Below are positions 11,636-31,496 of a DNA stretch of 64,000 nt, one piece after another. A program made the translations under genes and the position numbers. Below the pieces are notes generated by a model. The model was not told the origin of the DNA and did no database searches. It was given only the letters and a program-made list of their open reading frames with translations. Each line of letters starts with the position of its first letter. Position 1 is the first letter of the stretch. Origin of the DNA: Desertifilum tharense IPPAS B-1220 (lineage in GTDB: Bacteria; Cyanobacteriota; Cyanobacteriia; Cyanobacteriales; Desertifilaceae); contig NZ_MJGC01000057.1 in the NCBI RefSeq assembly GCF_001746915.1, forward strand, positions 1 to 64,000, written 5' to 3'.

Positions 11636-12022
11636 TTACTCCTCAATTTGCTTAACAGCGATTTCAACTGCATCAATATCAATCGTTCCTGCTGGAGTCA
11701 GGCGATTAAATTTTCCTTGAGCAACCTGGATCGGCTCGCCGCAGTTGGGACAGCGACATTGAGTTTTATTTAAAGCGGTAAACTCGTGGTTGCACACCGG
11801 GCAATCATCCTGAATCAGATTGCGTTGCAACCACCAGCGAAAGCCGAAAAAGCCGATAACAGGCGCAATCAGAATAAAAGCAAATAGAATTAAAACCGAT
11901 TGCACCAGCCACCCTAGTCCAATGGCTCCCAGCAACCAAGCAACACCGAGAACGATCAGCCAAGTGCTAAGACCGGAAAGATTGAGTTGTATTTGTTTAA
12001 AGCTATCTGGGTTCACAATCAT
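11636..12022 (-). CDS. Membrane protein with C-terminal zinc ribbon
   Basis: 128 residues. Two hydrophobic segments (about 19-37 and 41-62) are followed by a CPVC...CPNC zinc-ribbon motif (about 74-96). The family has no function I can name; similar short proteins occur in cyanobacteria. The gene is convergent with the exported protein gene before it and sits between that gene and the decayed element locus. Confidence 0.75.
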   Translation of the reverse strand: MIVNPDSFKQIQLNLSGLSTWLIVLGVAWLLGAIGLGWLVQSVLILFAFILIAPVIGFFGFRWWLQRNLIQDDCPVCNHEFTALNKTQCRCPNCGEPIQVAQGKFNRLTPAGTIDIDAVEIAVKQIEE

Positions 12023-12167
12023 CTCCTACAGGGTACGAACCAACCGATCTCCATCTTAAATGTCGTAACCGGACTCCTGCTACATCCACAAGAGCGAGCG
12101 TTATTTGAAATCTTGGGGAGTAGGATGGAGCTTTGTGGGAAAGCGAACAGATGCACCGCGTTTACCT

Positions 12168-12639
12168 GGAGAGTGAAAAAAAATGGAGAGCGATTTTTTT
12201 CGGGGGAGATGGAGCAGAGGACACGGTAAGATGGCTCCATGTCTGATTCACCTGAACCTGTCATCTACCAACTCAAAGTGGCACTACTGGGCATCAGTCC
12301 TATGATCTGGCGTCGCCTGCTGGTTAAAAGTGACAGCACGATCTTTCGCTTTGCACTACACGCTACAGATAGCAATGGGGTGGGAAGACCTCTGCTGGTA
12401 ACAAGTATTCTCTCTTCACGCCGCTCTAAATTCTTCGGTTTGCGAGGAGGCGGGTGTTTATTAGGAAGCAACATTGCCGAAAATGGCTGTTGTACCAAAG
12501 CTCAAGGTCTATCTCAAAGATAGATGCTGCTGAGCCGATGATGACGAGAGTTTGCCGAAAAGGGTCTAACTCGGCAATGTTAGCGCTGGGGTCTAGCTTT
12601 GCGCTCCAGTTCAATCTCCCCCATTTTTTTTCACTCTCC
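12168..12639. mobile_element. Non-autonomous inverted-repeat element with 5-bp target duplication
   Basis: The ends are perfect 19-bp inverted repeats, GGAGAGTGAAAAAAAATGG at 12168-12186 and its complement at 12621-12639. The pentamer TACCT flanks both ends (12163-12167 and 12640-12644), as expected of a target-site duplication. Just inside the ends, both sides share a second similar block (GGGGGAGAT), which suggests the original terminal repeats were longer. No transposase is encoded in the 472 bp; instead the element carries a frameshifted fragment of a pRiA4b ORF-3-like gene. This is the form of a MITE-like or internally deleted insertion sequence. The family cannot be assigned. Confidence 0.8.
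12239..12390 (+). pseudogene. Frameshifted pRiA4b ORF-3-like fragment inside the element
   Basis: The ATG at 12239 begins YQLKVALLGISPMIWRRL, the hallmark N-terminus of the plasmid pRiA4b ORF-3-like family, whose function is poorly known. After SDSTIFR (about 12350) the family motif continues in the +1 frame as LHYTLQIAMGWED (from 12351), so one extra T has shifted the frame. A stop follows soon after in the shifted frame, and the remaining two thirds of the family domain are not recognisable. This is a dead remnant. Confidence 0.7.
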
Positions 12640-12795
12640 TACCTAGATGAATTGGGTGCGATCGCTCAACTGCCTTTGGGGGTTGCTTTAATGGTTTTAA
12701 CGTTGTTGGATTTCTCGACCTTGGCGGATTTGGAGTTATGGCTGGCGAACCTGGAACAATAGGAATGGCATATTAGACGAGATCGAGAATCGCGG

Positions 12796-13914
12796 CTATT
12801 TAGAGTGCAATAGCTTTGCGAGTTGATGCACCAAGGCTTCTTGACCAAAACCTGCGATCGCCTCTTGACGGAGAAATTGACCGTCACAGCGTCGGTCTTC
12901 CCCTTTGAGGATTTCGATGCAAGCCTCAGCCACTGCATCGGGGTCGCGGTGGGGGACTTGCCAGCCGAGGCGTCCATCTTGTAAAGGATCAGCAGAACCA
13001 TCGCTATTGCCTGATAAGACGGGAATGCCACAAGCCATCGCTTCTAGATAAACAATGCCAAATCCTTCTTGAGAGGGCATGATGTAGGCATCGGCAACGC
13101 GGTAATGATCTACAAGGTCTTCGGTGGGGACAAACCCGGCAAAGACAACGCGCGAGCTAACGCCTAAATCTTGGGCAAGTTGGGCTAACCTCGGTTGGTC
13201 GTCACCGCGTCCAATCACTAAATACTTGACTTCTGGGAAAATTTGTGAAATGCGGGGTAAGGCCCGAATCGTGACATCCACACCTTTGTAGATATCGCCC
13301 GGCCACAACCGCGCCACTGTCATGAGGACTTTTGCACCCGCGAGGTGATAGCGTTCGATTAAATGCTGGGGTTTGGGGCCTGGGGTAAACGCCTCGCCAT
13401 CAATCGCACAGGAGAGCATATCGAACTTCTGGGGTTCAACTTGGTTGGCTTGGCTGGCGCGATCGCGACTATAGCGGCTAATCGTCCAAATCCGATCGGC
13501 GCGTTGCAAAGCTTGGCGATCTGCTAGGGGCAAGGTTTCCCATACCTCTTTACCATAGGTCAAAACGGTATAGGGAATTCCCAACGGCTGACAGAGCATT
13601 CGCACCAGTGGGGCTAAATTAATATGACCGCAAAACACCCGCTGCGGTCGCCGCAACAGCAGCGCCGACCCTAGCGCCGCCCCCAACCGAACGCGACCTC
13701 GCCATGCGGGATTGTCCTTAAAATAGCGAAATTGCAGTTCTGGATGTCCTTCAAAGGGGTTAACGCAGCCTTCCCCATCCCGCAGTAAAAACACCTCAGC
13801 CTGTCGGTGGGGTTCTCTTTGGGCTAGTTTGAGATACGCTCGGAAAATGTCTTTAACATAAGACTGAATTCCGCCTTCGCGCTCAAAGATTTCTAAAAAA
13901 ACAAATAAATCCAC
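12796..13914 (-). CDS. GT4-family glycosyltransferase
   Basis: A 372-residue GT-B fold enzyme, predicted to move a sugar from a nucleotide donor to a polysaccharide or lipid acceptor. Features are an N-terminal acceptor domain, the linker motif TVARLWPGDIYKGVDVTIRAL (about 202-222), and the donor-binding segment SQEGFGIVYLEAMACGIPVL with the EX7E glutamates (about 288-306). No transmembrane region is seen. It lies 44 bp downstream of the GDP-mannose-dehydratase-like gene on the same strand. The pair probably serves exopolysaccharide or glycan synthesis, possibly with a GDP-deoxysugar donor (inference). Confidence 0.9.
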   Translation of the reverse strand: MDLFVFLEIFEREGGIQSYVKDIFRAYLKLAQREPHRQAEVFLLRDGEGCVNPFEGHPELQFRYFKDNPAWRGRVRLGAALGSALLLRRPQRVFCGHINLAPLVRMLCQPLGIPYTVLTYGKEVWETLPLADRQALQRADRIWTISRYSRDRASQANQVEPQKFDMLSCAIDGEAFTPGPKPQHLIERYHLAGAKVLMTVARLWPGDIYKGVDVTIRALPRISQIFPEVKYLVIGRGDDQPRLAQLAQDLGVSSRVVFAGFVPTEDLVDHYRVADAYIMPSQEGFGIVYLEAMACGIPVLSGNSDGSADPLQDGRLGWQVPHRDPDAVAEACIEILKGEDRRCDGQFLRQEAIAGFGQEALVHQLAKLLHSK

Positions 13915-29263: not shown

Positions 29264-30629
29264 ACTCCCGTTACCTGATTTTTCCCTCTCCGATGAGGAG
29301 GATGACTCGACCGGATCGTATCGCGGATACGAAGGTCGCAGACGTAAGGCAGCAGTCTTACTGACAGTCATCTGGAGCGGTACGATCGCACTGCATCTCT
29401 TTTCCTGGGGCATTTGGTTTGTGTTGGGCGTGACCGCTTTAATGGGGATTCATGCCGTTCGGATTTTGTCGGCGCGACCGATTGCTTCGCCCGAACCGTT
29501 ATTTGAGACGGATCTTGAGCAATATCCGTTTGTCTCGCTGATGGTGGCGGCGAAAAATGAGGAAGCGGTGATCGCTCAGTTGGTGAAAATGCTGTGCAAT
29601 CTCGATTACCCCAGCGATCGCTATGAGGTTTGGGTGATTGACGATTACAGTACGGATCGCACCCCGGTTTTATTAGAAAAACTGGCGCGACAGTACGACC
29701 AGTTACAGGTGTTTCATCGCTCGGCGACGGCAACGGGAGGTAAGTCTGGGGCGCTCAATCAGGTTTTACCGCTCACCCAAGGGGAAATCCTCGCCGTTTT
29801 TGATGCGGACGCTCAGGTGACGCCCGATCTGTTGCAGCGCGTGATTCCCCGATTTCATCGCTCTCAGGTGGGGGCGGTACAACTGCGAAAAGCGATCGCC
29901 AATGCTTCTGTAAATTTCTGGACGCGGGGACAGATGGCGGAAATGGCACTCGATAGCTATTTCCAACAGCAACGAACTGCGATCGGCGGAATTGGCGAAT
30001 TGCGCGGAAACGGTCAGTTTGTCCGGCGCAAGGCGATCGAACGCTGCGGGGGATGGAACGAAGAAACGATTACCGACGACCTCGATTTAACCATTCGCCT
30101 GCATTTGGATGATTGGGATATTGAGTTTGCTCTAGAACCTGCCGTTCAAGAAGAAGGCGTCACTCGTCCAGTCGCCTTGTGGCATCAACGCAACCGTTGG
30201 GCGGAAGGGGGATATCAGCGCTATTTAGACTATTGGCGCTTGATTGTCCGCAACCGCATGGGCTGGCGGAAAACTTGGGATTTATTCATGTTTTGGATTA
30301 TCCAGTATTTCTTGCCGAATGCAGCGGTTCCCGATTGCTTGATGGCGATCGCGCGCAGCAAACTCCCCGTGTATAGTCCCGTAACGGCATTGATGCTGCT
30401 GATGTCTGTCGCCGGGATGTTTGGCGGTTTGCGTCGCATTCAACACGCCCATCCTCATCCCCAATCGATCTTTACCACCTTCATCCAAACCGTGCGCGGA
30501 ACGTTTTATATGTTCCACTGGTTATTGATTGTGGCAACCACATCCGCCCGGATTTCCGTTCGACCCAAACGGCTAAAATGGGTGAAAACCTTGCACCAAG
30601 GCAGCGGTGAAGAGAGTTTCGAGTTCTAA
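29208..30629 (+). CDS. mgdA: GT2 glycosyltransferase, probable monoglucosyldiacylglycerol synthase
   Basis: 473 residues. GT2 motifs are VIDDYSTDRT, FDADAQV, ITDDLDLT and QRNRWAEGG (Q-x-x-R-W), with membrane helices at about 50-85 and in the C-terminal third (360-450). It resembles Synechocystis Sll1377, which transfers glucose from UDP-glucose to diacylglycerol as the first step of cyanobacterial galactolipid synthesis (identity from memory). Its ATG at 29208 lies inside the radical SAM gene, and no later ATG, GTG or TTG occurs before the conserved region, so the overlap is real. Confidence 0.85.
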   Translation: MPENSWPENDFYKQSESLELPLPDFSLSDEEDDSTGSYRGYEGRRRKAAVLLTVIWSGTIALHLFSWGIWFVLGVTALMGIHAVRILSARPIASPEPLFETDLEQYPFVSLMVAAKNEEAVIAQLVKMLCNLDYPSDRYEVWVIDDYSTDRTPVLLEKLARQYDQLQVFHRSATATGGKSGALNQVLPLTQGEILAVFDADAQVTPDLLQRVIPRFHRSQVGAVQLRKAIANASVNFWTRGQMAEMALDSYFQQQRTAIGGIGELRGNGQFVRRKAIERCGGWNEETITDDLDLTIRLHLDDWDIEFALEPAVQEEGVTRPVALWHQRNRWAEGGYQRYLDYWRLIVRNRMGWRKTWDLFMFWIIQYFLPNAAVPDCLMAIARSKLPVYSPVTALMLLMSVAGMFGGLRRIQHAHPHPQSIFTTFIQTVRGTFYMFHWLLIVATTSARISVRPKRLKWVKTLHQGSGEESFEF

Positions 30630-30683
30630 ACGAACCGTTCCATTCCGTCCCCTCAACCGCGAGAAGCAGCATCTCGCGGTTTT

Positions 30684-31496
30684 TCAGTCAATACTAATTT
30701 CTATGCGGCGGTTGCGCTGGCGATTCACTTCCGTGTCATTGTCTACAAGGGGGCGAGTCTCGCCAAATCCGATGGTTGTCCACCGATATTGAGTATTGAG
30801 ACGATCGGTTAAATATTGCTGAACGGCTTGAGCGCGTTCTAATGACAGAATTTGATTGGTTTCAGCGTCGCTGGTATTGTCTGTATGGGCAGCAATGCGA
30901 ACGGCCGCTTGCGGGTGATTTTGTAACTCAACGACAATATTGTCTAAAACGGGTAAAATATCCTCTCGCAGCAAGCTTTCATTGCGACTAAAGAGAACAT
31001 CGCTCGGTAACGTCACGAAAAACTTAGCAGGCGTTTGCACCGCTTTTCCCCTTCCCAACGCCTCTGAGAGTTGTTGCAAGCGAACTTCTAAAGGGCGATC
31101 GCTTTTCGCAGTCCCGAATTGAGTTTCTAGGGCGGCGGTACTGGCGAGCAGTTGTTGATATTGGGTTTGGAGTTGTTGCAACTCGGCTTGCAGCGTTTGC
31201 TGTTGTTGGGCGGTTAACTGGGGAGAGGCTTGCTGAGTGGCAATTTGCGAGGCGGCTGGGTTGCTCAAAATACCTCGATTCAGCAAATCTGGAGAAGAAC
31301 GCCGAATTCTCTCAAACAGGGGTTCTTCCGGGTTAGAGGCAGGGTAAAAATGGGCGATCGCCACCCCCACAAAAAAGGCTAGCCCGCCCCCGACGCCCAG
31401 TAGCAGCAGGCGAAATAGAATAATCAAGACTTGTCGAAAGGCACTTCCACTCCTAGAAGGAGGCGGGATTTTTTGAGGGGCTTTAGATTCAGTCAC
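30684..31496 (-). CDS. OmpA/MotB-type C-terminal domain protein with membrane anchor
   Basis: About 270 residues from a GTG at 31496. A hydrophobic anchor (QVLIILFRLLLLGVGGGLAF) is followed by a Pro/Gln-rich region, a coiled coil of Gln and Leu, and a peptidoglycan-binding OmpA-like domain (IAAHTDNTS, LSLERAQAVQQYL, GFGETRPLV, NRRIEI). It probably tethers a membrane complex to the cell wall. The frame stays open to a TTG at 31619, but the extra 41 residues look random and the start is uncertain. Confidence 0.85.
   Translation of the reverse strand: MTESKAPQKIPPPSRSGSAFRQVLIILFRLLLLGVGGGLAFFVGVAIAHFYPASNPEEPLFERIRRSSPDLLNRGILSNPAASQIATQQASPQLTAQQQQTLQAELQQLQTQYQQLLASTAALETQFGTAKSDRPLEVRLQQLSEALGRGKAVQTPAKFFVTLPSDVLFSRNESLLREDILPVLDNIVVELQNHPQAAVRIAAHTDNTSDAETNQILSLERAQAVQQYLTDRLNTQYRWTTIGFGETRPLVDNDTEVNRQRNRRIEISID

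Follow-up and report, generated by a model that had tools for sequence, protein, structure and literature searches.

A mini-transposon with ISKra4-type ends in the genome of Desertifilum tharense IPPAS B-1220

MITEs are short elements with inverted ends and a flanking target duplication that carry no transposase and have an autonomous parent. Among larger transposons, the closest described systems are found in the ISKra4 family (p-MULT 4). In the available portions of Guerillot et al. (2014; PMC3942029), a branch carrying pRiA4_Orf3 is placed in the ISAzba1 group of that family, inverted repeats of 18–39 bp with a terminal C are described, and direct repeats of 8–9 bp are stated for elements of the p-MULT superfamily. 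Among 12 pRiA4_Orf3 elements listed there, five carry a serine recombinase and one a tyrosine recombinase, and cointegrate resolution was proposed for the recombinase-bearing elements. Two further elements, whose names we take from record annotation, are of the same general kind. ISSysp7 (Picosynechococcus sp. PCC 7002, pAQ6 and pAQ7) is ~2.8 kb long and combines an ISKra4-like transposase, a pRiA4b ORF-3 gene and a serine resolvase (PF00239, pAQ6 copy); no exact duplication flanks the two copies compared. ISKpn19, from enterobacterial plasmids, carries pRiA4b ORF-3, a serine resolvase (PF00239) and an ISKra4 transposase, and the copy we inspected has a 9-bp duplication at its 2851-bp boundary (7 or 11 bp at neighbouring boundaries); the parts of PMC5034289 and PMC8377239 at hand state no value for its duplication length. 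The term 'ISKra4' does not occur in the accessible text of a review of prokaryotic MITEs (PMC10969869), and among listed papers on ISKra4 together with cyanobacteria or MITE, titles and the opening lines of abstracts mention no mini-element like the one described here.

This element comprises 472 bp (12168–12639) of contig NZ_MJGC01000057.1 of D. tharense IPPAS B-1220 and lies in a 64-kb window, the whole stretch of DNA that was analyzed. The initial annotation had proposed a mobile element with exact 19-bp inverted ends, TACCT on both flanks, imperfect inner repeats beside the ends and no transposase. These structural details were borne out: the arms are complementary at 19/19 positions with 434 nt between them, TACCT adjoins both, an imperfect inner pair is present at 12202–12213 and 12611–12622, and the transposase is indeed absent, though a truncated piece of a pRiA4b ORF-3 gene survives (Table 1). 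A scan of the window for perfect inverted pairs (at least 14 bp, spacing 60–3000 bp) returned five, and only the 12168/12639 pair had a flanking direct repeat (3–12 bp). Allowing up to three mismatches, the 19-bp end matched the window at the two arms only (shuffled sequence, n = 100, mean 0.00), and the same two matches were the only ones in the whole assembly (6.09 Mb, 132 contigs) at up to two mismatches. The window holds a second perfect 19-bp inverted pair, ACTGCGAAAAGCGATCGCC, at 29882–31112; it is 1.2 kb across, lacks a flanking repeat and contains GCGATCGC.

Table 1 Features of the element and its insertion site (window coordinates)
Feature	Position	Strand	Remarks
Left piece of interrupted host pseudogene	12128..12162	+	Homologous to two 276-aa DUF2887+DUF4351 paralogues
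Left target-duplication copy, TACCT	12163..12167		TACCT once in paralogue L085; TATTT once at same place in L086
Outer left terminal inverted repeat	12168..12186	+	19/19 versus right end; first 17 bp (12168–12184) outside canonical family end
Canonical 26-bp ISKra4-type left end, GGAGAGCGATTTTTTTCGGGGGAGAT	12185..12210	+	Identical end (0 substitutions) in six other loci
pRiA4b ORF-3 gene remnant, first ~51 codons	12239..12392	+	PF07929 match; frameshifted between 12343 and 12351, truncated
Interior segment	12388..12581		84% identity to decayed element in G014
114-bp block	12468..12581		Common to four copies in three genomes; TTGCCGA direct at 12474 and 12552, inverted at 12568–12577
Right arm	12582..12639		93% over 43 bp (12597–12639) to solo right end in genome; resembles right ends in G276 and G146
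Right terminal inverted repeat, 19 bp	12621..12639	-	Complementary to left arm
Right target-duplication copy, TACCT	12640..12644		Matches left copy
Right piece of interrupted host pseudogene	12640..12762	+	Own internal deletion versus paralogues

Of 291 genomes of the order, 35 (own genome included) contain matches to the element, and most matches outside the own genome (38/49) begin at element position 13–19, that is, near 12185. The 26-bp end that starts there is identical at 26/26 positions in L041 (right end), L043, L047, L050, L053 (right end) and L057, while the two versions in L046 carry 4 and 5 substitutions. We read the imperfect inner repeats as the inner GGGGGAGAT half of this family end and attribute its 17-bp offset on the left to the additional outer 17 bp there. 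The right tip reads ...CTCTCC, and the 19-bp perfect repeat fits the published length range and terminal C (PMC3942029, available portions). The left arm in addition matches PF07929 (pRiA4b ORF-3) with an E-value of 4e-6 and 27.1 bits against a cut-off of 26.6; tblastn recovers the remnant in two pieces (aa 1–35 and 38–51), with the frameshift between 12343 and 12351.

Two loci with such ends are full-size elements, L041 (2958 bp) and L046 (2889 bp), in which the PF07929 gene is followed by genes for an ISKra4 transposase and then a tyrosine recombinase (Phage_integrase). Their transposases score 396 and 385 bits, respectively, with the ISKra4 model NF033572 (cut-off 205). The L046 transposase has matches in 11/291 genomes at E ≤ 1e-60 and in 2149 plasmid records at E ≤ 1e-40; four of these records show 80–90% identity and the other 2145 less than 60%, and records annotated as ISSysp7 and ISKpn19 are among them. 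Exact peptide patterns, which detect close relatives only, found none in viral contigs. The transposase of ISSysp7 is 54% identical to that of L046 and its ends, GAGAGTGATTAAAAACGGGGGAA, are similar, but it differs in having a serine resolvase instead of the tyrosine recombinase. ISKpn19 has a gene set of the same kind (pRiA4b ORF-3, a recombinase and an ISKra4 transposase) and similarly built ends, but with another end sequence. An ISKra4-type transposon is also present on Chroococcidiopsis plasmid pB (L113, NZ_CP097482.1), where the transposase matches in pieces and is unannotated in the PLSDB gene table.

The ends are thus homologous to those of elements encoding an ISKra4 transposase, and a pRiA4_Orf3 gene, a feature of the branch, stands beside the left end as a frameshifted remnant. 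No open reading frame for an ISKra4 (p-MULT 4) transposase occurs in the 472 bp; this is expected of a non-autonomous derivative, and we therefore file the element as a derivative rather than an autonomous member. It is very probably an internally deleted, transposase-less descendant of transposons that combine pRiA4b ORF-3, an ISKra4 transposase and a tyrosine recombinase. Judged by gene set, the relatives would fall within the ISAzba1 group: the full-size ones have the same kind of equipment as its pRiA4_Orf3 branch (pRiA4_Orf3, ISKra4-type transposase, site-specific recombinase), with long inverted repeats and a terminal C. As far as the available portions of PMC3942029 describe that group, the element here differs from it in lacking the transposase, in having a 5-bp rather than an 8–9-bp duplication, and in its doubled left end. 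What had been an orphan repeat is now tied to a transposon family with mixed equipment, a Mutator-like DDE transposase and a Tn3-style resolvase.

The flanking DNA supports an insertion. It is a fragment of a DUF2887/DUF4351-type gene; its own Pfam matches are weak and below the cut-off (E ~0.2), and it is homologous to two 276-aa open reading frames elsewhere in the same genome (L085 and L086), both of which match DUF2887 and DUF4351 over the whole profile length. These full-length paralogues sit on contigs C90 and C121. When the flanks are joined with a single TACCT, they align without gaps across the junction at 60/71 positions in L085 and 78/95 in L086, and give an open frame resembling the paralogues. 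L085 contains GCGTTTACCTAGATGAA exactly, and L086 has TATTT at the position of TACCT. The homology to the paralogues begins at ~12128 on the left, and the right piece is internally deleted relative to them. At the locus itself, ten genomes of the family were searched, own genome included: the right neighbor (a glycosyltransferase) was matched in 9/9 others and the left neighbor too in six, and none of the 25 matches in the other family genomes spans the junction. The two neighbor genes are 55–60 bp apart (match to match) in 6/6 of these genomes versus ~785 bp here, the latter distance derived from window coordinates. These six genomes lack the surrounding gene fragment as well as the element, and so are not base-exact empty sites; the clean, gapless empty sites are those of the two paralogues in the same genome.

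A search of the 132 contigs found no second full copy of the element. What it did find is an isolated right end of this type of mini-element (L008 5005–5047; G000:C50:13004–13046), 93% identical over 43 bp; the matches in the genome include no left partner for it. The genome has no ISKra4 transposase at E ≤ 0.001, no PF07929 match besides the remnant in the element, and a single distant match to the tyrosine recombinase (30% identity, E 6e-7). The assembly is in 132 contigs, and a further copy could possibly be missing from it. The copy is most likely immobile and stranded now; with a single full copy and no transposase found, movement within the own genome is not demonstrable by comparing copies.

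The initial annotation had held that mobility would be refuted if no other copy existed and relatives showed the same DNA at this place. The first part applies to this genome, where its proposed search for further copies yielded the solo right end only, but the second does not, as 6/6 relatives lack the element. The autonomous relative that it had looked to for support does exist, in elements with homologous ends and an ISKra4 transposase such as L041 and L046. Mobility as claimed is thus supported by the gapless paralogue empty sites, by element-free relatives, by ends common to transposase-bearing elements and by 5-bp duplications at two of those. Like prokaryotic MITEs in general, the element is short, has terminal inverted repeats and a target duplication, lacks a transposase and appears to derive from an autonomous element. 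It departs from MITEs generally in its number: one full copy and a solo right end in this genome, with short related copies in other genera. The evidence supports a once-mobile mini-transposon, a MITE-like non-autonomous element, as the best reading. It is a real mini-transposon of a known kind, and its noteworthy details are the 5-bp duplication and the doubled end.

Two relatives also have exact 5-bp repeats at their flanks: ACGTA in L046 (L093 is the same element) and TAAAA in L111, from Nostoc linckia NIES-25. These are the two out of 15 distinct end pairs among the relatives that have an exact flanking repeat. The other 13, which include five ISSysp7-type pairs, some decayed ones, a 288-bp mini-element in G014 and one pair (L098) that is probably spurious, have none of 3–10 bp. 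The duplication here, at L046 and at L111 is 5 bp and not the 8–9 bp in print, a size that rests on three copies and that may be a feature of a sub-branch.

The left end raises the question of which unit moved. Outside the canonical end it has 17 extra bp that are an exact repeat of the right tip, and the GGGGGAGAT half is missing from its usual spacing relative to this outer end. One possibility is that the original left tip was 12185 and that these 17 bp arrived once the element was already in place, either copied from the right end by conversion or brought in with the end of another element. The exact duplication of the right tip fits such an addition, as does the fact that family ends begin at 12185. 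TACCT abuts 12168 and not 12185, however, and the paralogues run on directly across that junction; a later addition would need to have landed exactly between the duplication and the tip, and we consider it quite unlikely. The simplest reading of this junction is that the outer 17 bp belonged to the unit that moved. Provided that it moved in this doubled form, the GGGGGAGAT half would be dispensable at its normal distance on one end.

The interior also has counterparts in other genera. Apart from its likeness to a decayed element in G014 (84% identity over 12388–12581), its 114-bp block recurs in the 288-bp mini-element of G014, which consists of both ends and the block without a target duplication, and in an end fragment in G224, likewise beside such ends; the three other copies of the block lie in two other genera. 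With 12388–12581 as query, 386 genomes of the phylum yielded matches in the own genome and G014 only, G224 not being among the matches, and an exact 25-bp scan of genome contigs returned one record, the MAG UBA11370, which is probably the same place as the G224 copy. The core of the block has four occurrences in 3/291 genomes of the order (own genome included), in copies with these ends; the same search found no parent element combining the block with a recombinase. The heptamer TTGCCGA occurs in the block twice directly and once inverted. G276 and G146 have right ends resembling the right arm, and neither this arm nor the interior matched plasmids at E up to 0.1. Other candidates were set aside. 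An Rfam search of 11900–12900 (E up to 1) gave only sR41 (E 0.52, 15.6 bits against a gathering threshold of 54), taken as chance; tblastn with the L041 and L046 proteins (E up to 0.1) found neither a transposase nor a recombinase gene piece in the element; and a G007 match to a right-arm motif, with one mismatch and no element end beside it, was likewise taken as chance.

How the copy arose can be pictured as follows. A DDE transposase of ISKra4 type, acting in trans, would have bound to the terminal repeats and cleaved the DNA at the outer GGAGAG tips. Joining to a staggered 5-bp target, TACCT, would have placed the element in a DUF2887/DUF4351-type gene fragment, the gene presumably being broken already; loss of the transposase source would then have left the copy immobile. 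The extra left 17 bp would come from the end of a second copy, through fusion or conversion at a TGG microhomology before or after the jump. The single full copy in the genome speaks for two other accounts. In one, the TACCT duplication was made by a full-size ISKra4-type transposon that landed at this site and then shrank to 472 bp by decay in place, so that the mini-element itself never moved. On family and insertion this account agrees with the best explanation, the only difference being when the deletion took place; the frameshifted, truncated ORF3 remnant and the decayed, rearranged 1179-bp copy (L043) elsewhere speak for it. It has to face the fact that copies in other genera, themselves short or decayed, also have 12388–12581 and the right arm, suggesting that some of the reduction is older than the insertion, as well as the 288-bp copy with both ends in G014, even if that copy has no duplication. 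We regard decay in place as unlikely but still a credible course. The other account, a non-mobile repeat or regulatory palindrome flanked by TACCT through chance, has next to no probability given homologous ends on transposase-bearing elements, the gene remnant of the same type and the paralogous empty sites.

A side observation concerns mechanism. In 6/6 relatives examined (L041, L046, L094, L096, L110 and L111), the tyrosine recombinase gene is preceded by an inverted pair, TTACCAACTT-8 nt-AAGTTGGTAA, at -67 or -68, in which the spacer varies and substitutions number two at most, and a direct copy follows at +28, 77–78 bp further on; base-shuffled sequence gives 0.04 motif matches per 200 bp. 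L110 and L111 are near-identical at the site and L046 and L094 alike, so these are fewer than six independent cases, and L110 is an incomplete element without a matched left end or ORF3. This three-part site is a candidate resolution site of the tyrosine resolvase in ISKra4-type transposons. According to the portions of PMC7157771 at hand, the irs of Tn4430 adjoins its tyrosine resolvase gene and consists of an inverted core and two direct repeats; given this likeness, cointegrate resolution is plausible for the tyrosine-recombinase relatives. Serine resolvase (PF00239) takes the place of this enzyme in 4/4 elements scanned, namely ISSysp7 (pAQ6), ISKpn19 and another two relatives. The 5-bp duplication in three copies, where 8–9 bp are in print, together with the three-part site in 6/6 relatives, is a hint of Tn4430-like cointegrate resolution in the sub-branch.

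The mini-element does not bear the relatives' recombinase motif, AAGTTGGTAAAA, which has one match in it at three mismatches and none at two or fewer. Its TTGCCGA copies form an inverted pair ~20 bp apart and a direct copy ~78–80 bp away, in reversed orientation compared with the relatives' site; the likeness was noticed post hoc and carries low weight. One might go further and suppose that the sub-branch moves like Tn3, with 5-bp duplications, cointegrates and resolution by the tyrosine recombinase at an internal site, and that the 114-bp block is a diverged resolution site kept for in-trans resolution of the mini-elements' cointegrates, but we consider this combined proposal improbable and speculative. 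Finally, G053 contains two ISSysp7-like copies (L101 and L108) in head-to-tail order, their ends separated by 7 bp, an arrangement that might result from tandem insertion or a circular intermediate.
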